A DNA stretch of 64,000 bases from Pirellula sp. (GTDB lineage: Bacteria; Planctomycetota; Planctomycetia; Pirellulales; PNKZ01). Each line of letters opens with the position of its first letter. Position 1 is the stretch's first letter. The DNA lies in assembly GCA_013822735.1 (NCBI GenBank), contig PNKZ01000002.1, positions 1 to 64,000 on the forward strand, read 5' to 3'. Positions 13,185-33,600 of this stretch are shown one piece after another. Under the pieces are notes generated by a model. The model worked only from the letters and a program-made list of their open reading frames with translations, was not told the DNA's origin and searched no databases. The translations under genes were made by a program, and so were the position numbers.

Positions 13185-14276
13185 ATGGGCACGGTTCTCA
13201 TCGACAAGCTGCTGCAGACGGTCGTCAACCAAGGCGCGAGCGACTTGCATATTTCGGTCGGTCAGCCGCCGGTGATTCGTCTGCACGGGCGCATGCGGCG
13301 TCTGGAAACCAAGTCGCTGACGGCCGACGATACCGCCGCCCTGATGAAGAGCATTACGCCCGAACGTTGCCAGACCGAGCTTCAGGAAGCGGGCGGGAGC
13401 GACTTCGGGTTCTCGTTCGGTACGCAAGCCCGGTTCCGCGTGTCGATTTTCAAGCAGCGCGGCTTCATCGGCATGGTGCTCCGGCAGATTCCGAACAAGT
13501 TCATGTCGATGGAAGACCTGGGCCTGCCGCCGGTTTGTCGAGAATTGATCAATCGCCCGCGCGGACTGTTCCTCGTCACGGGGCCGACCGGGTCCGGCAA
13601 GACGACCAGCCTCGCCAGCATGATCAACTGGCTCAACGAAAACACCGATCGGCACATCATCACGATCGAAGATCCGATCGAGTTTCAGCACGAACATAAG
13701 AAGTCGACGGTCAATCAGCGCGAAATCGGCGTCGACGTCCCGTCGTTCTCCGAGGCGATTCGCCGCGCCTTGCGACAAGACCCCGACGTGATCCTGGTCG
13801 GCGAAATGCGCGACTTGGAAACCATTGAAGCGGCGATCACCGCGGCCGAAACGGGGCACGTGGTGTTCGGCACGTTGCACACGACCGGTGCTCAGGGAAC
13901 GGTGAACCGCATCATCGACGTGTTCCCCACGAACCAGCAGGAGCAGATTCGCACGCAGCTCTCCACCGCGATCATCGGCATTCTTTCGCAGACGCTCGTA
14001 CCGAAGATCGGCGGCGGCCGCCGCGGCGCCTACGAAATGCTCGTGGTCGATTCGGCGTGCGCCAACCTGATCCGCGAAAACAAAACCTTCCGCATCAACT
14101 CCGTGATCCAAACCGGATCGAAGAAGGGGATGCGCTTGATGGACGACTCGCTCTACAACCTTTGGAAGAAAGGAGATTGTGCCAAGGAAGAAGTGTTGGA
14201 ACGCTCGGTGTATCCCGACGATCTCAGCGCTCGCATCGCGAAAGCGGAACGCGGCGTGTTTGACGACGAAGCGTAA
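13185..14276 (+). CDS. pilT: Twitching-motility retraction ATPase PilT
   Basis: The 363-residue length is normal for PilT. The N-terminus has the PilT signature LLQTVVNQGASDLHISVG. Walker A GPTGSGKT is at 133-140, Walker B VILVGEMRD at 202-210, and the FGTLHTTGA box follows. There are no zinc cysteines, as expected for a retraction ATPase. The C-terminal region is variable. PilT powers pilin depolymerisation and pilus retraction, a type IV pilus trait not found in classical type II secretion. It lies between two assembly ATPase genes, 48 bases upstream of the second. Confidence 0.95.
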   Translation: MGTVLIDKLLQTVVNQGASDLHISVGQPPVIRLHGRMRRLETKSLTADDTAALMKSITPERCQTELQEAGGSDFGFSFGTQARFRVSIFKQRGFIGMVLRQIPNKFMSMEDLGLPPVCRELINRPRGLFLVTGPTGSGKTTSLASMINWLNENTDRHIITIEDPIEFQHEHKKSTVNQREIGVDVPSFSEAIRRALRQDPDVILVGEMRDLETIEAAITAAETGHVVFGTLHTTGAQGTVNRIIDVFPTNQQEQIRTQLSTAIIGILSQTLVPKIGGGRRGAYEMLVVDSACANLIRENKTFRINSVIQTGSKKGMRLMDDSLYNLWKKGDCAKEEVLERSVYPDDLSARIAKAERGVFDDEA

Positions 14277-16123: not shown

Positions 16124-17449
16124 ATGCCTACGTTCCAGTTCGAGGCGATGGATCCGGCCGGCAAAGAGATCAAGGACGTAATCGAGGCGGCGAACGAAGA
16201 AGAAGCCCAGGCCACGATACGCGGCATGGGCTACTACGTTACGAAGATCTCCGCCAAGAAAGCGAAGCGCTCGGCGGAGAAGAAAGGAGGCGACGGCAAG
16301 GGCCGCGCCTTCGTGATCGGCGGCGTGAAGTCGAAGGAACTGACGATGTTTACGCGTCAGCTCTCCATTCTTCAAGACGCCGGCCTGCCGATCTTGCGCA
16401 GTCTCAAGATCTTGGAGCAGCAGTCCAAGCCGGGGCGTCTCAAGAACACGCTGATGGACGTGTGTGAAGACATCGAATCGGGCTCGACGCTTTCCGACGC
16501 AATGTCGAAGTGCCCGAAAGTCTTCGACCGTCTCTACGTCAACATGATCAAGGCCGGCGAAGCGGGCGGTGCTTTGGAAGTGATTCTCCGCCGTTTGGCC
16601 GAGTTTCAAGAAAAGTCGCAGTCGTTGAAGCGCAAGGTAAAAGGCGCGATGGTTTATCCCGTCGTCGTCGTGATGGTGGCCGTCGGCATCTTGGCGTTCA
16701 TCATGATCAAGATCGTGCCGGCGTTCGAAAAGATCTTCAAAGACTTTGATGCCGAGTTGCCGGGCATGACGCAAATGCTCATCAACATTTCCAATTGGAC
16801 GGCGAGCTACTGGTTCTTGATCCCGATCATCCCGATCTCCATCGTGCTGATGGTGAAGCTGATCTGCAAGTTCAAGGCGGGGCGATTCGGCTGGCATCTC
16901 TTTACGCTCAAGCTGCCGGTGTTCGGGCAGATCGTGGAGAAGAACATCGTGGCCCGCACCACGCGCACGCTCGGCACTTTGGTGGCGAGCGGCGTGCCGA
17001 TTCTGGAAGCGCTCAACATCACGCGCGAAACCAGCGGCAATGCGGTGTTCGAGCAGCTTTACGGGCGCATCTACGATTCGATTCGCGAAGGCGAGTCGAT
17101 CGCCAAGCCGATGCGCGAATACTCGCGGACAAAATTCAATTTCGTCGCCATGTTCTTTTGGACGTTCTTCATTCCGGTCATCGGTTTGGTGATTTATCTC
17201 ACGCGCGCCACGCAACGCATCATCGACGACCTGGTCGTCAACATGGTCGACGTCGGCGAAGAGACCGGTGAGTTGGACAAGATGCTTTACAAAGTCGCCG
17301 ACAATTACGACGAAGAAGTCGACGTGCTCACGGAAAGTTTGGTCAGTTTGCTCGAACCGATTTTGATCGTCGTGCTCGGCGTGATCGTCGGGTTTATCGT
17401 CATCGCGTTGTTCTTGCCGCTGGTCGCGCTGATTCAGAAGTTGAGCTAG
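16124..17449 (+). CDS. pilC: Inner-membrane platform protein PilC/GspF with an extra hydrophobic insert
   Basis: The 441-residue protein has the two GspF domains. The first includes FTRQLSILQDAGLPILRSL (residues 76-94) and the second TRTLGTLVASGVPILEALN (280-298), with VGEETGELDKML at 377-388. Membrane segments are near 176-198, 228-247 and 411-432. An additional stretch at about 331-368 includes the hydrophobic run NFVAMFFWTFFIPVIGLVI inside the second GspF domain. The N-terminal MPTFQFEAMDPAGKEI is the usual GspF opening. It anchors the assembly ATPases and pseudopilins in the inner membrane. Confidence 0.93.
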   Translation: MPTFQFEAMDPAGKEIKDVIEAANEEEAQATIRGMGYYVTKISAKKAKRSAEKKGGDGKGRAFVIGGVKSKELTMFTRQLSILQDAGLPILRSLKILEQQSKPGRLKNTLMDVCEDIESGSTLSDAMSKCPKVFDRLYVNMIKAGEAGGALEVILRRLAEFQEKSQSLKRKVKGAMVYPVVVVMVAVGILAFIMIKIVPAFEKIFKDFDAELPGMTQMLINISNWTASYWFLIPIIPISIVLMVKLICKFKAGRFGWHLFTLKLPVFGQIVEKNIVARTTRTLGTLVASGVPILEALNITRETSGNAVFEQLYGRIYDSIREGESIAKPMREYSRTKFNFVAMFFWTFFIPVIGLVIYLTRATQRIIDDLVVNMVDVGEETGELDKMLYKVADNYDEEVDVLTESLVSLLEPILIVVLGVIVGFIVIALFLPLVALIQKLS

Positions 17450-17586
17450 CCCGAGCGTCGTCGAAACGCGTCGCGAAGTAGGCAGTATAAGAGTTCGAAA
17501 CTAGGGAAATTAACTTGTCGTTCGCGCCTCAGGATCGATCGCGGGAAGCGATTGAGCGCGAAGCCGGCGTAGTCGGGAGAATCCGT

Positions 17587-18732
17587 ATGTTGGTCGGAGC
17601 AATCGCAAACCGCCGTAGCGTCGCATCGCGTGGAGCCGCGGCTCGTCTGGGCTTTACTCTCGTGGAAATGCTCGTGGTGATCGCCATCATCGGCATGCTC
17701 ATGGCATTGGTGAGCGTCGCCGTGTGGAAGGCCTTAGAGCGCGCCCGGATGACGAAGATCATCGTCGAAATCGGGCAGTTGCAGACGGCGATCCAGTCGT
17801 ACAAGGAAAAGCATCTGCAGTACCCGCCGTGCATGGCGGAAATCAACCTCACCAATCGCAAAGTTCACTTCATGCGGCACGTGCAGGTGGCGTTCACCAA
17901 CGCCAACTACGGTACCGCGGAAAGCAACTTCAACAACTTGCGAAGCAATCTGATGACGGGCACCGGCGTAACGGCGCAGGTTTACAATTACAAAGACATG
18001 GCGGGCGTCGTCAAACCGCTCGATCTCAATACGCTCGATCAAGCGGAAGCGCTCGTCTTTTGGATGGGCGGTTTTCCCACCCCCTTTAATTCGGGCAGCT
18101 CCGCTTCGATCGCCAACCGCCGCATCTTCGGCTTCCATCGCGATCAGGACTCGCCGTTTCGCCGCGACGCTGCCGGGACCGAAGGTCTCGACCCGCTGCG
18201 TTACCGCACGGACCCGTTCTTTCAGTTCGACGAAACGCGCTTGACCGATCAGGACGGTGACGGCTGGTTCGAATACCTCCCGATGCCTCAGGTCGGCAGC
18301 GCGGTCGTGGCGCCGTTCGTTTATTTCGACGCTGATTCTTACAGCACGGCATCCACGGCCACCGGCACCGCGCTCGAAATGCAAATCTACGGCTATCCGC
18401 GACTCGGCGACCTCAACTCCTTGGAGAACGCCGGCATCTGGGGCTTGTCCGTGCCTTTCGCGTCGTACATGGATCCGACGAATTCGAGCCCGATGCTTTG
18501 GGCGAATCCGGAATCGTTTCAAATCCAATGCGGCGGACTCGACGGCATGTATTCCGCGCCGGTCGACGACTTGTCGCAGGAAATGCGAGTCGTCATTTAT
18601 CCCGGCGGCCAGGTTTACAAGAAGTCCGACGGCTATTCGAAGCTGGGATCGCTCTCGGTCGAGGAGTCGGACAATCTTTCGAATCTAAGCAGCAACACGC
18701 TCGACGGCGCTCGTCAGGAAGCCGGTAGGTAA
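17587..18732 (+). CDS. Large pseudopilin, GspG-like
   Basis: The 381-residue protein has a class III prepilin signal: a basic leader, then G22^F23 in LGFTLVEMLVVIAIIG with E27 at mature position 5. After cleavage and N-methylation the hydrophobic helix would be the assembly stalk. The helix continues into KIIVEIGQLQTAIQSYKEKH, typical of the GspG major pseudopilin. The rest is far longer than the ~140 residues of GspG and unrecognised. I chose the ATG at 17587, preceded by GGGAGA; an upstream TTG at 17515 is less likely. It probably forms the fibre core or its base. Confidence 0.88.
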   Translation: MLVGAIANRRSVASRGAAARLGFTLVEMLVVIAIIGMLMALVSVAVWKALERARMTKIIVEIGQLQTAIQSYKEKHLQYPPCMAEINLTNRKVHFMRHVQVAFTNANYGTAESNFNNLRSNLMTGTGVTAQVYNYKDMAGVVKPLDLNTLDQAEALVFWMGGFPTPFNSGSSASIANRRIFGFHRDQDSPFRRDAAGTEGLDPLRYRTDPFFQFDETRLTDQDGDGWFEYLPMPQVGSAVVAPFVYFDADSYSTASTATGTALEMQIYGYPRLGDLNSLENAGIWGLSVPFASYMDPTNSSPMLWANPESFQIQCGGLDGMYSAPVDDLSQEMRVVIYPGGQVYKKSDGYSKLGSLSVEESDNLSNLSSNTLDGARQEAGR

Positions 18733-18733
18733 A

Positions 18734-20002
18734 ATGAGCGGCAATTTTCTCACCTCTCGCACGCGTGCATCCGCCGTAAGGCTCGGCCGTCGCGGCTTCA
18801 CGTTGGTGGAGTTGATCGTGGTCATCACGATCATCGCCATCTTGTCGTCGCTGTTTCTCGGCGCGCTCGATCAGGCGGAGCAAACAGCCAAGGCCGCGCG
18901 CACGTCGTCGCTCGTGCAGAAGCTCCATAACATGATTATGGCGCGCTGGGACAACTATCGCGCGGTCCGTCTGCCGATCAACGTGGATGCGCGCGTCGGC
19001 GGAAATTTTGCAAATGCCGGCAATGAGCAGCAATCGCGCTTTCGCCAAGACGTGGCGCGACGACGGATGGTGGCGATTCGCGAATTGGTCCGGATGGAAA
19101 TGCCCGATCGTTATGAAGATCTGACGTTCACACCGGAAGTGTTACGCTCGCCGCAAAACGGCAATCCGATTCGTCCGTTTCTCTGGAGCGCTTACCAGCG
19201 GCGGATGCTCTCCGCGAAAATGGCCAATAGTTTGACAAAAGACGAGAAGATGGCGGACTTCATGGGCCGCATCGCCGTCGACAATCAGTCGGCGGAATGT
19301 TTGTATTTGGTCATGACCGTCGGCGTGGAAAACACGTCGACCTCGACCGAGCATTTTACGTCGGCCGATTTCGGCGATACCGATCGGGACGGCATGCCGG
19401 AGTTCGTCGACTCTTGGGGGCGCCCGATCAACTTTCTCCGCTGGGCGCCCGGCTTCGTCTCTCCGGCGCAGCCGCTCTACCGTTATTCGCCGAGCGACCC
19501 GAAGGCCTCGGTGTTCCACGGCACGCAACCGCGTGATCCGGAGAACGGCATGATCATGAGCCGCTGGAAAATTCAGATCGACCGCGCGACGGACACGAGC
19601 GTCAGCCCGGCGAAGATTTACGACAAGCTCGTCATCATCGATCAAGACGATCCGTTCAATCCGATGCGCATCGGCCCCATCGCCGATACGATTCCCGGTC
19701 AGGGATGGTTGCGTTCTTCCCGTTGGCGGCCCGGCGATCCTGCGCCGGAGCACGGTTTCATTCTAATGCCGCTGATTTATTCCAACGGCCCCGACGCGCA
19801 ATCGGGCATCGATCATTGCTACTCCAATTTCGGCTACACGATGAAGCAGAGCCCAACCGAATCGCTCGGCCCCGTTTGTCAAAGCGATCCGTACAACCTT
19901 TACCAAGTCTCAGGTACCGAAGGCATGCGCTACCGAGGCGTTTCGCTCAACGACGGTCGGATCTTCGATAATATTCACAACCAACAAATTGCCACCAAGT
20001 AG
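18734..20002 (+). CDS. Large pseudopilin
   Basis: The 422-residue protein begins one base after the previous stop codon, suggesting translational coupling. Its prepilin signal is RRGFTLVELIVVITIIAILS with cleavage after G21 and glutamate at mature position 5. The helix runs into SSLVQKLHNMIMARWDNYR. The remaining ~330 residues are of unknown fold, with many short polar loops (SADFGDTDRDGMPEF resembles a calcium-binding loop). It belongs to the same operon-like block as its neighbours. Confidence 0.88.
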   Translation: MSGNFLTSRTRASAVRLGRRGFTLVELIVVITIIAILSSLFLGALDQAEQTAKAARTSSLVQKLHNMIMARWDNYRAVRLPINVDARVGGNFANAGNEQQSRFRQDVARRRMVAIRELVRMEMPDRYEDLTFTPEVLRSPQNGNPIRPFLWSAYQRRMLSAKMANSLTKDEKMADFMGRIAVDNQSAECLYLVMTVGVENTSTSTEHFTSADFGDTDRDGMPEFVDSWGRPINFLRWAPGFVSPAQPLYRYSPSDPKASVFHGTQPRDPENGMIMSRWKIQIDRATDTSVSPAKIYDKLVIIDQDDPFNPMRIGPIADTIPGQGWLRSSRWRPGDPAPEHGFILMPLIYSNGPDAQSGIDHCYSNFGYTMKQSPTESLGPVCQSDPYNLYQVSGTEGMRYRGVSLNDGRIFDNIHNQQIATK

Positions 20003-20030
20003 TGCGAGCGCGAATCGGCGGGGGCCCACA

Positions 20031-21533
20031 ATGCATCGACGACAAGTGACGACTGCGAGCACGAACATGAGCGATAATCGACTGTTACGAACGGTGATTC
20101 GGCGCGGCGGATTTACGCTGCTGGAGTTGCTGGTCGTGATTCTCATCATGTTGTCCGTCACGGCCGTGACGATTCCCGTCGTCGCACCGGCCATGAAGGG
20201 GCGACAGGTGCGCGAAGGCGCTCGCATGTTCAATACGTTTCTCAATGCGGCGCGCAATCGCGCCATTGAGTCGGGCCGGCCGTGCGGTGTTTGGCTCGAA
20301 AGAATGCCCGGCCTGCGCGAGGCTTGCGTCAACGTGCATTTCGCGGAAATTCCGCCCGCCTACGCCGGCGATTTTCTTGATTCGTCCATCGAGTCGTTCA
20401 TCGTCAACGGCAATCCTGCCGACGGCGCGACGGGAACGATGTCCGGCCAGTTTTTTAACGTTCCGCGAACGGAAACCTCCTGCCGCGATTACTGGAACAT
20501 CATCATTCCGCGCAGCCGTACGACGATGAACGTCGATTGTTGGGCCAGCCCCGATCCGGCCGATCAGCAAGTCGTTCGGGAAGGGGATCTGATTCAGTTT
20601 GAGGGGGACGATCGTCAGATCCCGTTGAAGGTCGTGAAGATGACGATTCCCGGTGCGACCAGCGCCAGCTCGAAGAATCTCTGGTGGTACCTCTATCGCG
20701 GGCGCAATTGCGACTGGAACGTCGGTCCCGACGGCACCTATCTCCCCGGCAACAGGAATCGACATTGGGACGGCGCCTACATCATCAACTGGTTTGATCG
20801 GTCCCATTACGTCAGCGGCGACACGGTTCGCATCACCACCTGGATGCCGATGAATCCGAACGTGACCGGCCTGCGTTACAAAATCCAACGGCAACCGATC
20901 AAGATGCAAGCCGGCTCCTTCAAAATGCCCGACGGCGTCGTGATCGATCTCAATTTTTCGTCCATGAGCGACGGCACGGCCAGTACGACCGTCTACGCGG
21001 CGACCACGAACTTCAATAGCGCCACGGTCGGATTCGGCTCTCCGGGCTGCCCGTTTCATCCGCGACGTGATCCGGGGGATACGACGAACATCAAGTCGCC
21101 CTACTGGGGCGACCCGATCTATCCGCAAGACGAGACGCCAATCATTCTCGTGTTCTCGGCGGGGGGGCATTGTGAGCGCGTCTATTGCCGAATCAAAGAC
21201 GGCATTACGGCGAATTCGCAATGGTCGTGGCAAGGGTTTGAACCCTACGGCATGATCCATTTCCTGGTCGGGCGCCTCGAGCGCATCATCCCGCACGAGC
21301 AGTACTACATGTCGCAAACCGCCGCCGTGAATCTTGAGATTCAAAAGAAGAAAAACTGGCTCGATCTCGACAACCTGTGGGTCAATGTCGAAACACAGTC
21401 GGGCATGATGACGACGTCGCTGATCGACAACGTCGATCCGTCCGCCGGCTTCGCCGCGCAGGCCGGCAATCCTCACAATGTGCATTTGACGCGGGTCAAG
21501 GCCCGCTTGGGTCGAACCTACGGAGGTCGCTAA
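20031..21533 (+). CDS. Large pseudopilin, GspH-like
   Basis: The 500-residue protein carries the prepilin signal RRGGFTLLELLVVILIML with a typical glycine before the phenylalanine. The following region REGARMFNTFLNAARNRAIESGRPCGV resembles the GspH/FimT pattern, in which the helix is followed by A-R-x-x-A-I-x-x-G. The start could be ATG 20031 or ATG 20067; the former is preceded by a G-rich stretch. The large C-terminal part is unrecognised. Canonical GspH is about 170 residues, so this one is enlarged threefold. Confidence 0.85.
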   Translation: MHRRQVTTASTNMSDNRLLRTVIRRGGFTLLELLVVILIMLSVTAVTIPVVAPAMKGRQVREGARMFNTFLNAARNRAIESGRPCGVWLERMPGLREACVNVHFAEIPPAYAGDFLDSSIESFIVNGNPADGATGTMSGQFFNVPRTETSCRDYWNIIIPRSRTTMNVDCWASPDPADQQVVREGDLIQFEGDDRQIPLKVVKMTIPGATSASSKNLWWYLYRGRNCDWNVGPDGTYLPGNRNRHWDGAYIINWFDRSHYVSGDTVRITTWMPMNPNVTGLRYKIQRQPIKMQAGSFKMPDGVVIDLNFSSMSDGTASTTVYAATTNFNSATVGFGSPGCPFHPRRDPGDTTNIKSPYWGDPIYPQDETPIILVFSAGGHCERVYCRIKDGITANSQWSWQGFEPYGMIHFLVGRLERIIPHEQYYMSQTAAVNLEIQKKKNWLDLDNLWVNVETQSGMMTTSLIDNVDPSAGFAAQAGNPHNVHLTRVKARLGRTYGGR

Positions 21534-21537
21534 GTTG
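21522..21537 (+). promoter_or_regulatory. Ribosome binding site selecting a TTG start
   Basis: GGAGG at 21522-21526 lies eight bases before the TTG at 21535. It overlaps the end of the preceding gene, so the two genes are likely translationally coupled. Confidence 0.65.
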
Positions 21538-22998
21538 ACCACGAAGATTCAGCGCGGACTACGTCGCGCCGTAACTCTGTTGGAAGTCCTGGTTTCGATG
21601 GGCGTCATGTCCGTCGGGCTCTTGGGGGTCGCCGCGCTCATTCCCTTGGGCCGGATGGAACTTGCCGAAGCCAACAAGATGGACAACGCCTCGACGATCG
21701 GGCGTTGGGCGTTTCGCGATCTGATGGTGCACGGATACTTGCAGCCCGAGATGTGGGTCGACCCGCTGAGCGGCCTCCAGTCGATTCGACCTTCGTTTAT
21801 TTCGTCGCCCACGACCGATCCCTATTCGCTCACGCCGAGCGGATTGCCGAAATCGCGCTTTGTTACGACCACGAACGGCACGATCGTTCCGCCGTTCGGA
21901 CCGATCATCATCGATCCCTTGATGCTGGCCCCTCGCCATTTCGGAGGCGGCTATTACACCGGTACGTCGGGGATGGCTCCCCAGGAACTTACGCATCGCC
22001 AGATTTGCAGCTCGTTTCCCTACAGCGTGAATTTGGCCGGCGCCGCGGCAGGTATGCCCGAGCAGCGCTCGGATGTGCCGCGCTTCGCACGCGTTTCCTT
22101 GCGTACCTATCCCATCGATACGTTTACGGCGTCGCCGCAACAATTCATCATGCGCAACGACATGGCGTCGCGTTTCTTTAAGTCGAACGACGATCTGATC
22201 ATCCAAGTACCGCGCGACAAATCGCGCCGCCCCGTGCAAGTGTTCACGCAAACCACGACGACGAGCTCCAACGTCAACATCTTGAACAACGACGGCTACA
22301 CAAACGAAGTGCGCACCGACGGCATCGCGTTTCGCAAGTTTCGCGGCGATATGAGTTGGTTTGTGATGGCCGAGCCGAGTATGGCCGAGAGCTACAATCA
22401 AGCGGTTGAAAACGCTCCGGCCGCAGCGGGCCCCGTCGGTTCTTCGGCGACGACCAAGCAGTACCGAGCCTGGGTCGTCGTGTGCCACCAGCGCGATCTA
22501 CGCGACGTCAGCGGGCAAACGCTTACCGATCCGCGCGGCGTCGGCGAACGGATGGTGTACGTCGACTTCATTGATCGCAACACGGCTCGCTTGCGTTGCG
22601 GCGGTCTCACGACCGAAGGAGCGGCGGCCACCGCGCTCGGCGTCAAGGCGAATCAGTGGATCGCCGTCTGCGGGCGCTATTTCGAGCCGGTCCTTCGCGC
22701 GAATCGCTGCATTATCGAGTGGTATCGCATTACCGGCGTGTCCGATCGTCCGACCTCGATGGGCAGTAACAATTGGTATCGCGAAGTGACGCTCATCGGC
22801 CGCGAATTCTCCGGCCTCGGCTTCACGTTTCAAGACGAAGATAACACCACCTATTCCGACTTGAGCATGACGCTCACCGGTGAGACCGTGGCGGCGCAGC
22901 CCATGACGGGCTTCGGCATCCTCATTTCCGGGGCCTGCGGCGTATATGAGAAATCGATTTACGTCGATCGTCCTTCGTTGTGGTCCATCCGTTATTAG
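21535..22998 (+). CDS. Pseudopilin, GspI/PilV-like
   Basis: The 487-residue protein starts at a TTG one base after the previous stop, supported by GGAGG at 21522. The N-terminus MTTKIQRGLRRAVTLLEVLVSMGVMSVGLLG matches the PilV/GspI minor pseudopilin pattern. The residue before the predicted cleavage is alanine (RRA^VTLLEV), where glycine is usual. Glutamate at mature position 5 is kept. The C-terminal ~430 residues are unrecognised. Canonical PilV/GspI proteins are 120-200 residues. Confidence 0.85.
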   Translation: MTTKIQRGLRRAVTLLEVLVSMGVMSVGLLGVAALIPLGRMELAEANKMDNASTIGRWAFRDLMVHGYLQPEMWVDPLSGLQSIRPSFISSPTTDPYSLTPSGLPKSRFVTTTNGTIVPPFGPIIIDPLMLAPRHFGGGYYTGTSGMAPQELTHRQICSSFPYSVNLAGAAAGMPEQRSDVPRFARVSLRTYPIDTFTASPQQFIMRNDMASRFFKSNDDLIIQVPRDKSRRPVQVFTQTTTTSSNVNILNNDGYTNEVRTDGIAFRKFRGDMSWFVMAEPSMAESYNQAVENAPAAAGPVGSSATTKQYRAWVVVCHQRDLRDVSGQTLTDPRGVGERMVYVDFIDRNTARLRCGGLTTEGAAATALGVKANQWIAVCGRYFEPVLRANRCIIEWYRITGVSDRPTSMGSNNWYREVTLIGREFSGLGFTFQDEDNTTYSDLSMTLTGETVAAQPMTGFGILISGACGVYEKSIYVDRPSLWSIRY

Positions 22999-23081: not shown

Positions 23082-26000
23082 ATGAATACTTCCGCCAAAG
23101 CAGTTATCGCCGTCCGGCCGACACCCGGTCCTCGAGGCGTCATCCTCCTGATCATGCTCGGGCTGTTGGCGTTGTTCACCCTGATCGCGGTGACGTTCGT
23201 GGTTGCCTCCGGGCAATTCCGGCGCGGCGCCACGGCCGCGGCAAGCGCGGAACGGATGGGAGATCCTTTCGACACGCTCCTTCATCAGGCGCTCATGCAG
23301 GTGGCCCGCGGTTCGAATCACCCGCATTCGGTGATCGGTCCGCATAGCTTGTTGGAAGATATGTACGGGAACGGCGACGCCGTAACCGGTTGCTGTTTTA
23401 TCGACACGCAGCAAATCGGCGGCACGGTCCCGGCGTCTCTGTACTCACAACCCGCCGGCGGTTCGCCGGCTTTGTCCGTGCGCGCGGACAGGAATATTAA
23501 GAATTATAAGGGAATGCCGGGTCAGGCCGCGCCGCCTATGCTGATCGAAATCGGCGCCGTCAGCTTCGGTTGGGATCGTGAGCCGGGCGTCGCCTTGGCC
23601 GACGACAACAACAACGGCGTCACGGACGACGCCGCGGAAGTACCGGATCGTGCGAGCGATCCGCTCAACGGCGACGATTGCTTCTTGGGCGCCACGTACG
23701 CTCACCCCGCGATGGTCGGCGAAGATCCGACGTATTGGCCCACCGTTTGGCAGAACAAACAAATGTCGGACGGCAGTAGTGCCTTGCCGCTGATCGACAA
23801 TGTGGAGAACTATTATGCCGGGCGAGTGATTACGTTCGTCAACGGGGATGCGGCGGGCCAAAGCGCGTATATCGTTCGCTCGAAACTTGTTCCCGTGACA
23901 TTCTCCCAGACGGCGAACCTCGCGTTTCGCACGATCTTGTACATCCAGCCGTTTGCGAACGGAGCTCAGCCGTCGCACAAAGATCGTTTCGTCATCAACG
24001 GCCGAGCCTTCAACGGCGCCGGCTTCGGTTACAACCCCTACATTGCCTCGACCGCAAGCTTGCTGACGCGCAAGCCGGCGTACGTACCCAGTGGTAGTAC
24101 GGCGCCTAACGTCCCGAATCCGCTGCTGCGCGCGCTCGACATGCCCTATAGCGAGCCGTTTATTCGCACTCCAGCGAACGACGGCGCTCCCTACACCTTC
24201 GACATGATTCGCAGCGGCGGATATCCGATGGCGTTGCTGCCGAACCCGGTCGACGGCGGATATCGCGACTATTTGAATCGATACACGTCGATTATCGATG
24301 CCGACGAAGACTACGACGCTCCCGACGAACAGAACATGTTGTTGTCTTATAGCGTGTGGGTGCCGTCCACGAACGGCTGGGATCCCGGTCGCTATCGGAC
24401 GATCATGCCCTCGCTGCATCGCCCGGACTTAGTGAAGTATTTTACGAACAAGCCGGAGTTGTCGGTCGCAAAACCGAGTTCGATAACTTACGCGCGCTGG
24501 CACGACGTTCCGCCGTATATTCGCCGACGCTACATCATGCGTCCCGACCCTTCCGATCATTACGACTGGACGCAAGAACTCAATGCGACGCAACCGCAAA
24601 ACAGCGACGGTTGGACGCCGGGCGAGCCGTTCCTCGATACGAACAACAACGGTCAGTGGGATCCGGTTACGGTCGTCGGCGGCGCCGCCGGCCCGGCGGA
24701 GCAATACACCGACTTGCCGAATCCGAAACAGAATCAGATGTACGACATCGGTGATCGGGCCTACTACAACACCGGCTTCGACGCCATGGACGGCCCTTGG
24801 GACGTCGACAACGACAACGACAATTTGCCCGACAGCATCTGGGTTGATTTGGGAGCGCCAGTTACCACCGCGCCCGACGGCAAAATCGTGAAGCCGATGT
24901 TTGCCGTTCTCGTGCGCGATCTCGACGGCCGCATCAACGTCAACGCCCACGGTTCGGCGAAGCACTACGATCGGACGGCGGCCGCGTACGGCCCGTATAC
25001 GCCGCAAACGAAGCCGAATCCGTACCAGTCGCACGAACGCTTGCGCATGGGGAACTATGCGGTGGCCATGTATCAGTATGAACCGGACGTCGCGTGGAAC
25101 ACGGTCGACGTTATCAAGGTGCATACGGCCGGCGATCCCGACGCGAAGCGCGACGGTATGACATTTCGCGACATTCCGTTTCAAGGCGTGTGGGCGTTGC
25201 CCTACTACAACGACGGCCCGTTCTTTGGAAACAATGCTCTGAAGGCGACGAACTACATCGTCACGGTTCCGAACAGTCCGACGTTTCCGGCGTTCAACGG
25301 CAATCGGGGTGGTCCTCGACCGTTGATGTTCGATATTCGCGGAAGCGCGAATTCCGCCGGAGCCGTCGACTGGGCGCGACAGATACGCGGCTTTGAGCCT
25401 GCCGTAGGCCAAGGCTGGTCCGTGGCCGACATCAATCTCGCGCAGGTGCTCCAGACCGGCTTGCACGGTCTGTCGACCCTTCCGAATTCCAATGCCACCA
25501 GCGTTACTTCCTACGCCTCGTCAAACTACTATCGCTTTCTGCTCGAAGGCGTTCCCCACGAGAAGGGAAATAGCGCTCCGGCGGTCGGGCGCTATGGCGA
25601 AAGTTATTTGGTGGCTCCGAGCGGCGCCGGCGGCTCTTTTCCCGGACTGGTCGGACCGCGCGCCGGCGTGACGGATCTGATCACGATGTATCCGAACCTA
25701 GTGGCGGCCGGCACTCCCGCGGTAACTGCCGTGGCCGCCATGCCGCCCGTGCGAGGTGACGACGATATTCCTGCCGCTCCATCCCGCTTTGTGGCCCCGT
25801 CGAACGATTCTCGCTTCGTCCGCGGCGGCGCATTTCGCAATGCCTTTATGCCGTTCATTCTGCCGTATAAGGTGCCGACCGCTTTACCCACCGATCAGCC
25901 TTACGGCGTTACGGTTCCCGAGTTTGGTCCTCGCGTCCCCAACTCGCCGACGACGCTCTCTTATTCGCCCAGTCCTTGGGGTTCGTTGCACGGAGATTTC

Positions 26001-29000
26001 GGCACCCCGGGCGATGCCGACAGCGACGGCTCGGTCGCGCTCGACGCAAGCGGCCAACCGGTCTTCGTGAAAATGGGAACCGCCAACGAAGAGTTCGACG
26101 ATCCGACGGAAATTAATTTGCATCGACGATACTTCGCGCAAACGTTCTTCGGCATTAGCAACCCCGGAGCCGGCCTGTCGGCATCACTAAACGGGGCGGG
26201 AGTTCCCTACACCACGGACATTGACGCACCCTTCGCCCCGGCGGAAATGGAGCGCCTGCTTCGAGCGCGCGATGCGGGAAGTGATACGTTGCCGAGCCGT
26301 CTGCGCAACCTACTGCGCGGCGACGGTGAAGGTGGCGACATCGACAACTATGACTTGCGCCGTTCGCTCACCACGGAAAGTTGGGACGTGCCGTGCCCGC
26401 ACGTCGCCCCGACTCCGGAACTTGCCGCCGCGATGCGGGCGCTGAATCTCCCGATCAATAATCCTTCGATCAGCGATTTGCTCCGCGCGCGGTTTTATTT
26501 GGCTTCGGGCCAGGCCCCATCTACGGCGCTGGCGCTGAAGTCGGCCCGCTTGGCGACCATCGCGATGCGCAGCTATCGGTGGCAAACAGCGCCCGTTGAG
26601 TATAACCAGCTTCCCACCAATGCGACCGCCGACGAGAAGGCGCAGTTCCCGGGAAACTACAGGCTCACGAACGTGGCCCGTAAGCGTTGGCACACGCGCT
26701 TGCTTTCGGCCGACCTGGGTCAAGGCTTGCGGATGGACCTGAATGTGCCCTTCGGCAACGGCTTCGACGACAACAACAACGGCGTCGTCGATGAACCTTA
26801 CGAATGGACGTCCGGCGGAACCGGTAACGGCAGTATTTTCGGTGCGCTTAACTTCGACGGCAATCGCGACGGCAACTATTTTCCCAATCTCGATGAAGAA
26901 CCAAGGCAGCAATTTGCCAAAGAATTGTACTGCTTGATGATGCTGTTGATCGATCAGAATTATGTCGAGTTGATGCCGCTGTCAGTTTCCTCAACGTCGA
27001 CCGCCACCGGAATTTTCAACGTCGGTCTGGAAGCCAACTTAGCGTACACGGGTGCCGCGACCGCGCTGTATCCGTATATTCCCGCCACCGGGAATAATCC
27101 CGTAACCGGGATTTCGTATGCCCAAGAAAAACTACGCCGCTGGCTTACGGCGCGGCGCATTGCCCAATGGGCAATCAACGTCGTCGATTTCCGTGATCGC
27201 GACTCCATCATGACGCCGTTTGAGTTCGACGCCGATCCGTTCTTCGACAACGACAACGACACCGTCAACGTTCCCTCCGCGGCCGCGGCGGAAGGCTCGA
27301 TGGCGGCGCACCTACCTACCTGCAACGGCACCTGGGACGTCGACGGCTATTTGATCCCGACGACGATGGCCGACGGCTTCAACGACACCCTTCAGCCCTG
27401 GCGCGGCGTCGTCTGGGGTTGTGAGTATCCCGACCTGTTGCTGACGGAGACCGCGGCGTTTCATGATCGCAGGACGCAAAATCTCAAATCTGTGGACGGA
27501 AACACCAACGGCTTGACATTCGCCACGACCAACTATTTGACGGAGATTCCTGCGCCTACCGGCACCCCTGCACCACCCAACGATCCAAGTTGGGATTCCT
27601 ATCGTATTCCGCAGGGGACGGCGCTCTTCGAACTTTACGCGACGGGCAACCCCAACAATCCCGCCTTGCCGCGCGAACTCTATACTCTGAATCCCTCGAC
27701 CGGCGACCTCACGCTCGACCTTACGCGGACCGTGTCGGCGACGACAACCACCGCCGGAACGCAGATCTATCCGGTTTGGCGCCTGGCAATTACGCAATCG
27801 CATTACGTGGGGGAAGTGCCCCAGTCGCTCGCCACGAACATGAATCTGAGCATCGCCGACCGGCTCCGAGAGTATCCGGCAACGTGTTCGCTCGACCTGC
27901 GCGACCCGGGCATGTCGCTGTTGCCTAGTTCGGTTTGCACCAACATCACTGCGGGATCGGAGCAGTACGTTCCGATCGAACGCGTCGTGACGTTCGTGCA
28001 AAACCCGACCGCGTCGTTCAATGCCAAGGCCGGATTGACCTCGAGTAAGACGTTGGCGAATCAGGTGGGCACGATCGATGTGTACTACAACACGACGACC
28101 AACACCAGCTACGCGCAAGTGTTGCCCGGCGACTACGTCGTCGTCGGACCGGGTCGCGACGTCGTCGCCGGCCCGCGCAACATCACTTGCATCGGCAAAA
28201 CGTATCCGAAGATGGTCTTTACGTCCGGCTCCACGAGCACGACGCTGACCAACTACAGCTATCCGCAAAGCATTATCGACATGGGGGACCCGTCGGTCCC
28301 CGGCCGTTACTTCCTGCACACCAGCGTGAATGGGGTCGACGAGTACCCGATCCGCTATCTCGGCGCCAGTACGCTGGGGAATTTGGTCCGTCCGACCACC
28401 GCTCTCGGGTCGTTGAACATTCTCGACATCCCGGGCTACCTGCAGATTCGTCCGCCGGTGTCGGTGCCGTGTATGGCTACCGTAGGGTCGACCGGTACGC
28501 GCCGCGTCGGCCTCAATATCTCCGAACCGACGGTCTCCGGTGCGGGATCAACGTATTATCCTGCCCCCACGAAAGCAACGAAGGACGAATGGCTGACGAC
28601 GCTGGAGACCATGGACGCGTATACGACCGTTTACGACACGCCATTGGATGAAATGACGCAAGGGGACAGCGGTTCGCACAATGAAAATATTCCCCACAGC
28701 GCGACGGAAGAGGAGGATCGCACCCTTCTCAACTACAAGACCGTGTTCTTGCAACGTCTGGCCGATCCGACGCGCGGTTGGGATCAGTATCTCAATCCGT
28801 ATCTAACGATCGACTGGATGCCGATCGATCTGACGATCTACAACGGCGAGCCGCACTACGTCTATAAAGATTCGGCCAACGTCTATCAAAAAGACATTAC
28901 GAAGACGACGCATCTCATCGATCCCTCGAAACAGAAGCGCGTTACGGTTGCGAAGCCGCAATACGCCGCGGATGTTCCCGCGACGGCCATTCGCTACGGT

Positions 29001-31679
29001 TCGCGTCAGCGCGGCGCGCCGCGCACGCCGTTCCGCGGCAACTATTCCTACTACGACCTTTGGTCGCAGCCCGATTGGCTGGATACGTCCGTGGAGGCTG
29101 ACACGCGTCCGCCGTTGACCGGTCGCGTGATGGACAGCAAACTCAAAGTCCTTCACGTCGGCGGCACCAGCACCACGCTGACGCCCGCCTACTACAACGT
29201 GGCGGCATTGCGCTGGCAGGATCCTTTCGACCACACGTTTGGTTACCTCAATTTGGGATACCATACGATGCGGGCTCCGACCAACGTCAACAATCGCGCC
29301 AGCTTGGCCATGCAAGACCCGCTTTGGGTCAACAACGCGGCAACCGACTTGCCGGAAGCTGTGTCGAGGTACTGGCTGCGCATGTCCCCCGTGCGCGAAC
29401 CCTTGCGCCGGCCGTTCGGCGACGCCGGCTTAAACACGGGCTGGTTCACGGCCGCGGATCTCGGCGGTAATACGCGCTACGTCGGTACGCCCCGTCGGCC
29501 GTTTAACTGGCTCACTTGGAATAATCGACCGTTTGCGGGGTCGATGGAGCTAATGCTGGTTCCGGCGTCGTCGCCGGGTCGGCTATTGCATGAATACTCC
29601 ATGCGCGTGCCGACGCCCCCTTCCGTACCCGACGATTTAGCGCCGGGCGCCCCGAATCCGGCGCAGCCTGAAACCAGACTTTTCGCCAACCGTTACGCTC
29701 CATACTCCGGCGTACGTGCCGCAAACCATTACATGCCGAGGGTCGCGGCGCCGCAAGCTACGATTACGAGCGGACATACGACCGCCGCGCCGGCTTCCGG
29801 TTCCAGCGTTTACGCCGGCAACTTCATGGCGGGCTTTATCAGCAAGCCTCCCTTTGGACATTTGCTCAACTTCTTTGAATCGTCGAATGCGACGGGCATG
29901 ACGTATTCGGTGGACACTTCGATTCCGCCGGTGAGTATTTCGCCGACGCTCAACAACACCAAGCAGACCAACGCGGCGAATTTCTTTCGCTTGTTCGAGT
30001 TTGTCAACGTGCCTTCACGCATGGCCGGCTCACGGATGCCGAATTACTCCACGCTCTATAACAATGCCCCGGCACCGCTGGGCTACGAGCACCCGGGTTG
30101 GCCGTTTACCGCACCGCATAATCTCTTCTCGGCGTATCGCGAGCCGGGACGCGTGAACATCAACACGATCATTCCGCTGCATTCGATTGTTCGATTCAAT
30201 TCGGACAATAAGCCCTACGGACGAACCGAAGGAACATCCCTCGCGAACGGAATGGCGGCGGTCGTGCGTAACGAAAGGTATCGTGACGACGGAGCATCAA
30301 TTTGGCGCTCCGTCCTCAACGATTTCCATCCGGCGATTCGCTGGGTGGGAAATACGGCGGCGGATGTCGTCGACGGACTCGGAGTGCCGCTTATGCCCCG
30401 TGGCGTAGGGTCGCCGCAGTTGCAAACGCCGAAAACGATGGCGCATTTGCGACAACAGAATACGTCGACGGCCTCGGGACAGACCGGTACCCGAGCCGGC
30501 TTCATGCAAGGCGCGAATGACGTGACGCAATCGCCGTATATCTTCAACCCGAGTGAAGACACGGTCGGCAACTTCTATTCGGCGTTTGCCAGCATGTTTA
30601 AGGACGATACCAATTCCGACCCGCGCGGACCGGACGGCGTTTACCAGAATTTTCCTTATTGGGATCCGCTGACGAGCACGGTTTACAACAGCGACGATCG
30701 GTTCTTGCATCCGTTCTGGAACGGCGCGAGTCCGCCCAAGCTCTCGCGCCACGACGGTTTCCGATCGTCGATGATCTCCAATCCGTTCCGCTCGTTTATG
30801 GAAGACTTCTCGGCGACTCCCAAGGGGCAGCCGGCGGTGTTCGGAGCGCTTGCCGACAAGCGATTCTCCACGTTTGAGGACCTAACCAATAACAACCAGA
30901 GATTGCCGTTGCTTGCCGTCGATTCCACGTTGTTGCGACGTCGCGACACGACTTGGAACCCATGGCATCGCAATTGGCTGCCGATTAATCCCACTGCAGG
31001 CGAAATCCAAGCGGCCTCGGTGGGGACGGCCCCGACGAGCAAATTGTTTGGACCCGCTCAGATCGACCCCCGTTTCGACCCGCTGTTTGCCTTGAACTAT
31101 CCGCGCCCGTTCCACCACCGCTCGCAGCAGCAAGGGGACATCTTTAGCACCAACGCGATCGTGCCGGGAACTACGGCCAACGTTGCCAAGCCGGCTTGGT
31201 GGATGTACTCGGGCCTGAGCTCCTCGTTGGCACATTATATCGGTAGCTCGTCGGTCACCGGGGCGATCACCTACGGGGCGGCTACGGTGGATGCCATCCG
31301 GGTGAAAGACTCCGACTATCGCAACACCGATCGCAATCCGTTCTTCCGTTATCAGCTTTACACCAAGTTGAGCAACACGATTACGACGCGTTCGAACGTT
31401 TACGCCATCTGGGTAACCGTCGGCTACTTCGAGTGCGAACGAGTGCAACCGGGCGTCATCTACCCCGTGCAGTTCGGACATTCCAACGCCACCGAGTTTG
31501 CGACCAAGCATCGTTATCCGGACGGATATCGAATCATCCGCGAACTTGGGAGCGACAACGGTGAAACCCAGCGACACCGGGCGTTTGCGATTCTCGATCG
31601 GACGATTCCGGTCGGTTTCCTACGCGGAGAGAATCTGAATGTGGATCGCTGCTTCTTGATTAAACGCGTCATCGAGTAG
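23082..31679 (+). CDS. Giant GspK-like pseudopilin, 2,865 residues
   Basis: The protein begins with a short leader and GPRG^VILLIMLGLLALFTLIAVTFV, a prepilin-type segment cut after G19. It lacks glutamate at mature position 5, as GspK minor pseudopilins do. GspK-like GRINVN motifs occur twice: DGRINVN at 615-621 and PGRVNINT at 2355-2362. Aspartate/asparagine-rich loops resembling calcium-binding loops (DDNNNGVTDD at 174, DTNNNGQWD at 519, DDNNNGVVDE at 1229) are spread through it. Ordinary GspK is ~320 residues. I chose ATG 23082; ATG 23067 is possible. Position between GspI-like and GspJ-like genes fits a tip-complex role. Most of its length is unrecognised. Confidence 0.85.
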   Translation: MNTSAKAVIAVRPTPGPRGVILLIMLGLLALFTLIAVTFVVASGQFRRGATAAASAERMGDPFDTLLHQALMQVARGSNHPHSVIGPHSLLEDMYGNGDAVTGCCFIDTQQIGGTVPASLYSQPAGGSPALSVRADRNIKNYKGMPGQAAPPMLIEIGAVSFGWDREPGVALADDNNNGVTDDAAEVPDRASDPLNGDDCFLGATYAHPAMVGEDPTYWPTVWQNKQMSDGSSALPLIDNVENYYAGRVITFVNGDAAGQSAYIVRSKLVPVTFSQTANLAFRTILYIQPFANGAQPSHKDRFVINGRAFNGAGFGYNPYIASTASLLTRKPAYVPSGSTAPNVPNPLLRALDMPYSEPFIRTPANDGAPYTFDMIRSGGYPMALLPNPVDGGYRDYLNRYTSIIDADEDYDAPDEQNMLLSYSVWVPSTNGWDPGRYRTIMPSLHRPDLVKYFTNKPELSVAKPSSITYARWHDVPPYIRRRYIMRPDPSDHYDWTQELNATQPQNSDGWTPGEPFLDTNNNGQWDPVTVVGGAAGPAEQYTDLPNPKQNQMYDIGDRAYYNTGFDAMDGPWDVDNDNDNLPDSIWVDLGAPVTTAPDGKIVKPMFAVLVRDLDGRINVNAHGSAKHYDRTAAAYGPYTPQTKPNPYQSHERLRMGNYAVAMYQYEPDVAWNTVDVIKVHTAGDPDAKRDGMTFRDIPFQGVWALPYYNDGPFFGNNALKATNYIVTVPNSPTFPAFNGNRGGPRPLMFDIRGSANSAGAVDWARQIRGFEPAVGQGWSVADINLAQVLQTGLHGLSTLPNSNATSVTSYASSNYYRFLLEGVPHEKGNSAPAVGRYGESYLVAPSGAGGSFPGLVGPRAGVTDLITMYPNLVAAGTPAVTAVAAMPPVRGDDDIPAAPSRFVAPSNDSRFVRGGAFRNAFMPFILPYKVPTALPTDQPYGVTVPEFGPRVPNSPTTLSYSPSPWGSLHGDFGTPGDADSDGSVALDASGQPVFVKMGTANEEFDDPTEINLHRRYFAQTFFGISNPGAGLSASLNGAGVPYTTDIDAPFAPAEMERLLRARDAGSDTLPSRLRNLLRGDGEGGDIDNYDLRRSLTTESWDVPCPHVAPTPELAAAMRALNLPINNPSISDLLRARFYLASGQAPSTALALKSARLATIAMRSYRWQTAPVEYNQLPTNATADEKAQFPGNYRLTNVARKRWHTRLLSADLGQGLRMDLNVPFGNGFDDNNNGVVDEPYEWTSGGTGNGSIFGALNFDGNRDGNYFPNLDEEPRQQFAKELYCLMMLLIDQNYVELMPLSVSSTSTATGIFNVGLEANLAYTGAATALYPYIPATGNNPVTGISYAQEKLRRWLTARRIAQWAINVVDFRDRDSIMTPFEFDADPFFDNDNDTVNVPSAAAAEGSMAAHLPTCNGTWDVDGYLIPTTMADGFNDTLQPWRGVVWGCEYPDLLLTETAAFHDRRTQNLKSVDGNTNGLTFATTNYLTEIPAPTGTPAPPNDPSWDSYRIPQGTALFELYATGNPNNPALPRELYTLNPSTGDLTLDLTRTVSATTTTAGTQIYPVWRLAITQSHYVGEVPQSLATNMNLSIADRLREYPATCSLDLRDPGMSLLPSSVCTNITAGSEQYVPIERVVTFVQNPTASFNAKAGLTSSKTLANQVGTIDVYYNTTTNTSYAQVLPGDYVVVGPGRDVVAGPRNITCIGKTYPKMVFTSGSTSTTLTNYSYPQSIIDMGDPSVPGRYFLHTSVNGVDEYPIRYLGASTLGNLVRPTTALGSLNILDIPGYLQIRPPVSVPCMATVGSTGTRRVGLNISEPTVSGAGSTYYPAPTKATKDEWLTTLETMDAYTTVYDTPLDEMTQGDSGSHNENIPHSATEEEDRTLLNYKTVFLQRLADPTRGWDQYLNPYLTIDWMPIDLTIYNGEPHYVYKDSANVYQKDITKTTHLIDPSKQKRVTVAKPQYAADVPATAIRYGSRQRGAPRTPFRGNYSYYDLWSQPDWLDTSVEADTRPPLTGRVMDSKLKVLHVGGTSTTLTPAYYNVAALRWQDPFDHTFGYLNLGYHTMRAPTNVNNRASLAMQDPLWVNNAATDLPEAVSRYWLRMSPVREPLRRPFGDAGLNTGWFTAADLGGNTRYVGTPRRPFNWLTWNNRPFAGSMELMLVPASSPGRLLHEYSMRVPTPPSVPDDLAPGAPNPAQPETRLFANRYAPYSGVRAANHYMPRVAAPQATITSGHTTAAPASGSSVYAGNFMAGFISKPPFGHLLNFFESSNATGMTYSVDTSIPPVSISPTLNNTKQTNAANFFRLFEFVNVPSRMAGSRMPNYSTLYNNAPAPLGYEHPGWPFTAPHNLFSAYREPGRVNINTIIPLHSIVRFNSDNKPYGRTEGTSLANGMAAVVRNERYRDDGASIWRSVLNDFHPAIRWVGNTAADVVDGLGVPLMPRGVGSPQLQTPKTMAHLRQQNTSTASGQTGTRAGFMQGANDVTQSPYIFNPSEDTVGNFYSAFASMFKDDTNSDPRGPDGVYQNFPYWDPLTSTVYNSDDRFLHPFWNGASPPKLSRHDGFRSSMISNPFRSFMEDFSATPKGQPAVFGALADKRFSTFEDLTNNNQRLPLLAVDSTLLRRRDTTWNPWHRNWLPINPTAGEIQAASVGTAPTSKLFGPAQIDPRFDPLFALNYPRPFHHRSQQQGDIFSTNAIVPGTTANVAKPAWWMYSGLSSSLAHYIGSSSVTGAITYGAATVDAIRVKDSDYRNTDRNPFFRYQLYTKLSNTITTRSNVYAIWVTVGYFECERVQPGVIYPVQFGHSNATEFATKHRYPDGYRIIRELGSDNGETQRHRAFAILDRTIPVGFLRGENLNVDRCFLIKRVIE

Positions 31680-31716: not shown

Positions 31717-33600
31717 ATGAAGAACCATTCCAAGCCTTGCGGCGCGTGCGTGCGAACGTCACGAAGCGCTTTCACGCTGCTTGAAGTTCTGATCGCATTG
31801 ACGATCACGCTCATTCTCATGGGCCTGGTCATGGAGATGTTCACGCGCGTCAGCGCCGGCATCAACAACAGCCGCGCCAACATGGATCTCAACGATCAGC
31901 TGCGGCATGCCAAGAATCGACTCATCTTAGACTTACGCGGGGCGACCGCGCCGACGGTGCCGCCGCTCGACCCGAACATGCATCTCGGCTACTTCGAATA
32001 CGTCGAAGGACCGAGAGTCGCCACGTCGCAGTTTGCTGCGAACAGTACCGGCGGCGACATGGGAGAGCAACTCGGCGGCAATTGGTTCACGAGTCGTGGG
32101 CCCACATGGCCGGCGGGCGCGGCCAATCTGAACGTGAACTCGGTGATCGGCGACAACGACGACATTCTCATGTTCACGACCTGCAGCTACGACGACAAGT
32201 TTGTCGGCCGCGGCGGCATCAAAAACGGCGTGCCGTTGGCGCTGAAATCGCGCCACGCCGAGGTCGCGTGGTTCTTGCGTCGTCGGACGCCGGGCGAGGT
32301 GAATTCGATTCGGAACGACTCTCGAACGGAAGTGTATACGCTCCATCGCCGACAGTTCGTCATCTTGCCGAACGGCGGATATTGGGGATCGCTCGACTAT
32401 TCCAACGTGGATTTTTCCATGCGTGCGCAGGGAGGAAACTACGACAATCTTCTCGTCCCCACGAATAACGTAACCGGCAAAAAGGCGTTAGACCCCGCGG
32501 CGGCCCGCAATAGCCTCGGCGATCTTACCAAACGTGAGAATCGCTCACTGCATCAGCCGTTTCTATGGCCGTATCAAATGGTCTACGTGGCGCCGCAATT
32601 TAACAGCGGCACGACGAACCACGGCACTTTCAATCCGGCCTCGATGCTGGGCTCAAATCCTCTCGCTGCGGCCACGGATCCGCTCCGGGCCTATGCGTTT
32701 AATGTGCCTATCAGCGCCCTTTCGATTCCGACGCTGGCCGAGCAGAGTCACGGCGCGTTTCCACTACCGAATCCGGAGAAGGTGTCCGGCACGGGCAATT
32801 ACGTGTTGAAAAATCTCATGACGCCGACGCCGCCGGGCGGCTACATCGGAGGCCAAGTGCTGCCGCAAACGGGATCACGCATCGGCGCCGATATCATCCT
32901 GACGAACGTGATCGGCTTCGACGTGAAAGCGTGGGATCCGGGGGCGCCGGTATTCCGAGCCGAATCGTCGTCGGCAAATCCCAATAATGCCGGAGTGCTT
33001 GTGCCGGGCGATGCCGGCTACGTGCGGGCCGTCGACCTGTTTATCGGCGGCGCCACCACGGCCGCTCGGCAACCGGTGGCATTTGGCGCCTTTGCCGATT
33101 TGAACTATCTGGGGATGGATGCTGCGACGAGTACTTCGGCGACTTCCGCACTTGGCAAGTATCGTAGTTATCAAGAGCCGCTGACCGGGCTTTCGACCTT
33201 GCAAAGAATGGAAGCCGGCGCGCCGTTTAATAGCAGATGCCGCGTTCCTCGCGCGCAGTTCGCACATCCCGGTAGCGGCCCGCTTTCCGGAACGCCCACG
33301 CACGGTTTCGCGCGCCCAGCGGTCTGGGATACTTGGTCGACACATTATGAGTACGACGGCGTCGACAACGATTTCGACGGAGTCATTGACGAATTGACCA
33401 ACGGCGTCGATGACAACGCCAACGGCCTTGTCGATGAGCCGGACGCGACCGTTAGTAACGGAGCCTACATCGGCGAACTAGAGGCCCCGCCCCCTTATCG
33501 CTCGCCGCTACGCGGCATCAAGGTGACGATCCGCGTGATGGAGCCCGATAGCAAGGAAGTTCGCGAAGTGACGGTCGTTCACGAATTTGTGCCGCTCTAA
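31717..33600 (+). CDS. Pseudopilin, GspJ/PilW-like
   Basis: The 627-residue protein has the prepilin signal SRSAFTLLEVLIALTITLIL, with alanine (A18) before the predicted cleavage and glutamate at mature position 5. The helix continues MGLVMEMFTRVSAGINNSRANMDL, then LRHAKNRLILDLRGATAP, similar to GspJ/PilW. Near the C-terminus are paired calcium-loop-like motifs, DNDFDGVIDE and DDNANGLVDE. Canonical GspJ is ~200 residues. It is the last gene of the cluster; its stop codon overlaps the stop of the convergent hydrolase-like gene. Confidence 0.86.
   Translation: MKNHSKPCGACVRTSRSAFTLLEVLIALTITLILMGLVMEMFTRVSAGINNSRANMDLNDQLRHAKNRLILDLRGATAPTVPPLDPNMHLGYFEYVEGPRVATSQFAANSTGGDMGEQLGGNWFTSRGPTWPAGAANLNVNSVIGDNDDILMFTTCSYDDKFVGRGGIKNGVPLALKSRHAEVAWFLRRRTPGEVNSIRNDSRTEVYTLHRRQFVILPNGGYWGSLDYSNVDFSMRAQGGNYDNLLVPTNNVTGKKALDPAAARNSLGDLTKRENRSLHQPFLWPYQMVYVAPQFNSGTTNHGTFNPASMLGSNPLAAATDPLRAYAFNVPISALSIPTLAEQSHGAFPLPNPEKVSGTGNYVLKNLMTPTPPGGYIGGQVLPQTGSRIGADIILTNVIGFDVKAWDPGAPVFRAESSSANPNNAGVLVPGDAGYVRAVDLFIGGATTAARQPVAFGAFADLNYLGMDAATSTSATSALGKYRSYQEPLTGLSTLQRMEAGAPFNSRCRVPRAQFAHPGSGPLSGTPTHGFARPAVWDTWSTHYEYDGVDNDFDGVIDELTNGVDDNANGLVDEPDATVSNGAYIGELEAPPPYRSPLRGIKVTIRVMEPDSKEVREVTVVHEFVPL

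Follow-up and report, generated by a model that had tools for sequence, protein, structure and literature searches.

The window analyzed here, a stretch of 64,000 nucleotides of planctomycete DNA, carries on its forward strand a row of genes for pilus-type ATPases, a platform protein, and pilins. Among them lies an uninterrupted open reading frame of 2,865 codons, which runs from an ATG to a stop and whose product (313.6 kDa) we call giant K. An alternative in-frame start, a GTG at position 22980, would lengthen the protein to 2,899 residues and overlaps the upstream gene; translation more probably starts at the ATG at 23082. The genes of the row, with the basis of each assignment in parentheses, are as follows:

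11169..12860, + strand, PilB-type assembly ATPase (profile match)
13185..14276, + strand, PilT-type retraction ATPase (TIGR01420, 443.8 bits versus a cut-off of 319.1)
14325..16037, + strand, second PilB/GspE-type ATPase (profile match)
16124..17449, + strand, PilC/GspF platform protein (profile match)
17515..18732, + strand, GspG-like pilin, 405 aa (hhalign GspG 98%)
18734..20002, + strand, second GspG-like pilin (G'), 422 aa (hhalign GspG 97%)
19989..21533, + strand, GspH-like pilin, 514 aa (hhalign GspH 96%)
21535..22998, + strand, GspI/PilV-like pilin, 487 aa (hhalign I 85% versus J 74%, ambiguous; TIGR02523, E 5.8e-5)
23082..31679, + strand, giant K, putative GspK-fold minor pilin, 2,865 aa (frame, relatives, operon order, model of a compact relative)
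31717..33600, + strand, GspJ-like pilin, 627 aa (hhalign GspJ 96%)

The PilB matches fall slightly under the equivalog cut-offs, while the PilT match exceeds its curated one. As originally predicted, giant K sits between a GspI-like and a GspJ-like gene, the I assignment being ambiguous with J. The order (PilB-PilT-)PilB-PilC-G-G'-H-I-K-J is kept in the inspected relatives with enough flanking sequence; in about half of the inspected relatives the J-like gene has diverged too far to be recognized by BLAST. Genomes of one family (f8; L145 503-19900, and L146) hold two tandem G-G'-H-I-K-J cassettes with K proteins of differing size. At the start of the window, positions 1-257 contain a 102-bp tandem repeat that recalls TPR-type coding repeats.

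A protein search found relatives of giant K, as single open frames, in 53 of 58 genomes from the order and its neighbors. The 20 relatives that were read measure 1,552 to 3,045 aa, and the shortest of all reach 1,126 aa (L144) and 1,207 aa (L145). Within the class, a profile built on the middle block (A5) recovered the family in 146 of 199 genomes, representing 93 of 110 genera; most of these frames measure about 1,350 to 3,231 aa. A C-terminal profile matched in only 13 of 294 genomes sampled across the phylum, all of them in this same class. The spread of the family across genomes as single frames establishes that it is old and class-wide, and it disposes of the concern, voiced with the original prediction, that the frame was stitched together from several genes by a sequencing or assembly error: relatives of 1.1 to 3.2 kaa from independent genomes have no internal stop and keep the same domain order, leaving such an artefact with next to no chance of being the explanation. 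The predicted giant size is thus real and conserved (1,126-3,231 aa across relatives), and the giants sought at the same locus in other planctomycetes are there, in a fixed operon order. Internal duplication was looked for in giant K as a source of its size and rejected, none being found.

At the N terminus, a leader ending in PTPGPRG is followed by VILLIMLGLLALFTLIAV, with a prepilin-type (class III) cleavage site between the two, such that the mature protein would begin at V20 (V20-I-L-L-I). Residue +5 of the mature form is Ile, and in none of the 44 relatives with a readable N terminus is this position a Glu (V 26, L 7, I 7, F 2, A 1, G 1), while all five neighboring pilins have Glu5. A prepilin site and a helix lacking Glu at position 5 were the starting point of the original prediction, and both are borne out. 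In hhalign, the first 70 residues of the giant family match the GspK profile at 92% and other pseudopilins at no more than about 10%. Further along the chain, the following segments and motifs can be distinguished:

23082..23204, + strand, prepilin leader (19 aa) and beginning of the N-terminal helix (cleavage site; hhalign to the GspK family)
23382..24011, + strand, residues 101-310, possible inserted beta-barrel-like module (weak matches; mapped from residues 101-200 of the compact model)
23601..23627, + strand, residues 174-182, calcium-loop-like DDNNNGVTD (loop motif)
24636..24662, + strand, residues 519-527, calcium-loop-like DTNNNGQWD (loop motif)
24777..25001, + strand, conserved block WDVDNDNDNLPDSIWVD ... 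FAVLVRDLDGRINVNAHG with GspK-like motif 1, GRINVN, residues 616-621
26766..26792, + strand, residues 1229-1237, calcium-loop-like DDNNNGVVD (loop motif)
27159..27236, + strand, AQWAINVVDFRDRDSIMTPFEFD block, at the position of the GspK helix DWIDxDDxPRxxGAE
27414..28823, + strand, residues 1445-1914, beta-rich region, lamin-tail (Ig-like) domain suggested
29523..29588, + strand, residues 2148-2169, NRPFxSxxELMLVPxxSPxRLL block, resembling GspK NGPLxSxEELLLVRGVTPxLLF
30147..30167, + strand, residues 2356-2362, GspK-like motif 2, GRVNINT
31305..31676, + strand, residues 2742-2865, C-terminal block, the best-conserved part, putative C-terminal strands of the pilin sheet

The two G-R-(I/V)-N-(V/I)-N motifs that had been noticed in the sequence are indeed present, at residues 616 and 2356, and take the family-wide forms DLDGR(L/I)N(L/V)NAHG (motif 1) and REPG(K/R)(V/I)N(L/I)NT (motif 2). 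The GspK motifs RLNLNAL, DWIDxD, NGPLxSxEELLLVxG, and GKLNVNQAP are echoed, in matching order, by GRLNLNAHG, DFRDRD, NRPFxSxxELMLVP, and REPGKVNLNT in the giants. To this order we applied a profile alignment allowing free long gaps, with 300 block shuffles. When the N-terminal helix was included, the score was reached by 1 of the 300 shuffles, but without the helix it was reached by 99, which is not above chance; the motif order therefore counts as suggestive only. By sequence alone, then, only the N-terminal helix is convincing as GspK. The Pfam and NCBIfam models of GspK match no family member, and searches of Pfam, NCBIfam, and PDB sequences, whether started from giant K itself or from profiles of its family, gave nothing useful. 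The Pfam model T2SSK (PF03934), however, appears insensitive here, since it misses not only the giants but also the ordinary, 510-aa GspK of the same genome.

The case for a GspK fold comes mainly from a predicted structure. The compact 1,126-aa relative was folded whole with AlphaFold from 37 sequences (pLDDT 69, pTM 0.77), giving a model with a 40-residue N-terminal helix, a mixed middle, and a C-terminal sheet. Its best VIA-align match is E. coli GspK (3ci0_K; Z 13.9, 252 of 280 residues, rmsd 4.4), followed by 5vtm_X (13.0), 6utu_C (12.6), and 9a1f_T (11.6); these top four are all GspK/XcpX, and unrelated chains appear only from Z 7.3 downward. This likeness was seen only on the second look with VIA-align: Foldseek returned no match to the compact model at E <= 0.001, and alone it found nothing significant against the PDB and viral models. 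Because the alignment takes in residues 58-1126 and thus the length of the compact relative, the GspK core is spread across the whole chain, with the rest inserted. Compared with this relative, to which it is 30% identical, the 2,865-aa protein has 63 extra segments totaling 1,812 residues, and on this sequence comparison giant K appears to have grown by many insertions, neither by fusion of one domain nor by duplication. For the 2,865-aa protein itself, the fold rests on homology, since the model of its residues 1180-2379 (pLDDT 62) has no match above Z 3 and GspK is absent from the matches; likewise, the pilin sheet with an inserted alpha-domain is present in the compact-relative model and is assigned to the 2,865-aa protein by homology only. 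The proposed comparison of AlphaFold models with GspK thus succeeded for the compact relative and drew a blank for the middle of the giant, and the identification as a GspK-like pseudopilin gains from the compact model (Z 13.9) and the operon context what the motifs alone (99/300 shuffles) could not give it. Taken together, this modeled structure and, in addition, the operon context support giant K as a GspK-type minor pilin.

The insertions can be described in part. Three calcium-type loops of the form DxDxDGxxD occur in the 2,865-aa protein, against none expected in shuffles, suggesting that giant K may bind calcium; the J-like pilin (31717-33600) also has DxDxDG-type loops (NDFDGVIDELTNGVDDNANGLVDEPD). 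Residues 101-200 of the compact model match several unrelated barrels at a Z of about 7. A lamin-tail domain is suggested by weak matches of compact-model residues 673-843 to lamin-B1 (Z 7.3) and of one relative to Pfam LTD (E 0.031), and the model of the giant's own segment covering residues 1445-1914 is beta-rich, without a structural match.

Does such a protein belong to a filament at all? It could instead be a scaffold anchored in the inner membrane, in the periplasm or at the surface, that has borrowed only the pilin signal, and its extreme size, the weak sequence similarity beyond the helix, and the enlarged periplasm of planctomycetes (PMC5394234) would all suit such a role. We consider this improbable, given the strict synteny with pilins and PilB/PilT/PilC, the retention of the entire GspK core, C-terminal sheet included, and the covariation of K length with the lengths of H, G', and J across genomes (Spearman 0.93, 0.81, and 0.75, with genomes counted without correction for kinship), which is as expected if these subunits fit together. 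Of the two roles originally proposed, tip or scaffold subunit, the latter is thus unsupported, while a position as tip or cap would follow from homology to GspK.

The nature of the filament is suggested by the company that giant K keeps. The operon combines PilT with PilB and PilC and has none of gspC, gspD, gspL, and gspM, nor a secretin or PilMNO, and the genome holds a complete ordinary type II secretion system (T2SS) elsewhere (G000:C16; L075 794-15325), comprising E, F, G, H, I, J, K, two L/M-like genes, and a secretin. The operon is therefore of type IV pilus-like character, its minor pilins resembling those of a T2SS, and it probably does not encode the secretion piston that was envisaged at first alongside a fiber. 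The GspK of the ordinary system is the one of 510 aa, and ordinary GspKs akin to it turned up in 22 of 30 relatives. The main rival to a capped fiber is nonetheless a periplasmic piston: giant K would be the plug-like head of a short pseudopilus confined to the periplasm, in a second, unusual secretion system. In its favor, the five neighboring pilins match GspG, H, I, and J of type II systems and K is GspK-like; GspK limits pseudopilus length (PMC6211770); and a globular head of roughly 9 nm, by our estimate, would squeeze through a secretin with difficulty. The size of the head, together with reports that bulky additions on tip proteins jam the Myxococcus pilus machine (PMC7541494), keeps this reading alive, and a 300 kDa head may for the same reason fail to pass an ordinary secretin. 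Against it stand the PilT above its curated cut-off, the missing gspCDLM, and the separate T2SS, and on balance we regard the piston as unlikely.

A candidate for the envelope part of the fiber lies on the same contig, about 700 kb from giant K (G000:C2, about 722-733 kb; L155 4974-14527), where PilM (731 aa), two unnamed genes (491 and 570 aa), and a secretin (1,237 aa) stand in a row, all longer than usual. It is possible that this cluster serves the giant-K fiber. As an obligate partner it was rejected, its presence not tracking the giant tightly: among genomes it is commoner than giant K and also occurs without it. A further pilin/PilM/secretin cluster, at G000:C8 (L157 1558-11358), includes a 518-aa protein with a GspK-like N terminus (RQGVAVVLVLGMIAMT).

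We therefore favor, at a probability of roughly two in three, the reading that giant K is a GspK-type minor pilin capping a retractable type IV pilus-like fiber. Prepilin peptidase would cut off the 19-residue leader, and the hydrophobic helix without Glu5 would then top the helical bundle, distal to the I- and J-like pilins. GspK is the top of the T2SS tip complex and binds calcium (PMC6211770), and tip complexes act as primer, adhesin, and cork, with GspK and PilX both lacking Glu5 (PMC7541494). It is the distal subunit that lacks Glu5 in both systems; with such a helix at the distal end, giant K would enter first, and no subunit could be added above it. The protein would retain the GspK core (N-terminal helix, pilin sheet, and alpha-domain), from which dozens of insertions, including the lamin-tail/Ig-like module and the calcium-binding loops, would hang to form a tip head of roughly 300 kDa. 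PilB-type ATPases and PilC would extend the fiber and PilT would pull it back, while the giant head would probably prime assembly, touch surfaces or macromolecules outside the cell, and halt retraction as a cork.

What such a fiber might bind is a matter for hypothesis. Planctomycetes bear 12-nm pili-like fibers on crateriform structures that bind dextran-gold (PMC5394234, 2017), and the giant-K operon is a conceivable builder of them. A bolder and rather doubtful version would have a class-wide fiber whose tip subunit (up to 350 kDa) absorbed the role of a PilY1-like adhesin and which is the very 12-nm fiber that hauls dextran to the crateriform pores for uptake. No paper linking planctomycete giants with pilins was found in the literature searched, which lacks most subscription journals and so may miss an earlier description; a giant extracellular tip head in most of the class thus seems to be undescribed. 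If the proposal is correct, the family would be by far the largest known among type IV filament subunits, in most of a class; it would raise the mechanical question of how a fiber with a 120-350 kDa cap exits the cell and retracts, and it would offer a gene for testing what builds the dextran-binding fibers.

Several known systems invite comparison. Verru_Chthon cassette protein A (TIGR02600) is a large prepilin-like cassette protein in a related phylum; its model has no match at E <= 1 in 23 members of the giant family, and none at the giant K locus. Planctomycete "giant genes" of more than 5 kb, a class of length that the gene for giant K shares, were counted in all 29 genomes then available, without any text on pilins (PMC5177795). 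With GspK/XcpX (3ci0_K, 5vtm_X), giant K shares the prepilin helix without Glu5, adjoining G-, H-, I-, and J-type genes, acidic calcium-type loops, and, in the compact relative, a predicted fold over 252 of 280 GspK residues. It differs in length (1,126-3,231 aa versus about 320, or 510 in the ordinary GspK of the same genome), in its large inserted modules and lack of a match to curated GspK profiles, and in an operon that has PilT, no T2SS envelope genes, and the order I-K-J instead of I-J-K. The tip of type IVa pili (PilX, minor pilins, and PilY1; PMC7541494) resembles the proposed fiber in its PilB, PilT, and PilC, its Glu5-less tip pilin, and its large tip-borne module, but the bulk of giant K would belong to the pilin itself rather than to a separate PilY1. 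Modular pilins (PMC8179133) likewise carry functional modules and, in Thermus thermophilus and GspK cases, have domains inside the pilin sheet; the extreme of that 2021 survey, however, was 860 aa, whereas giant K proteins reach about 3,200 aa through many insertions over a GspK core.
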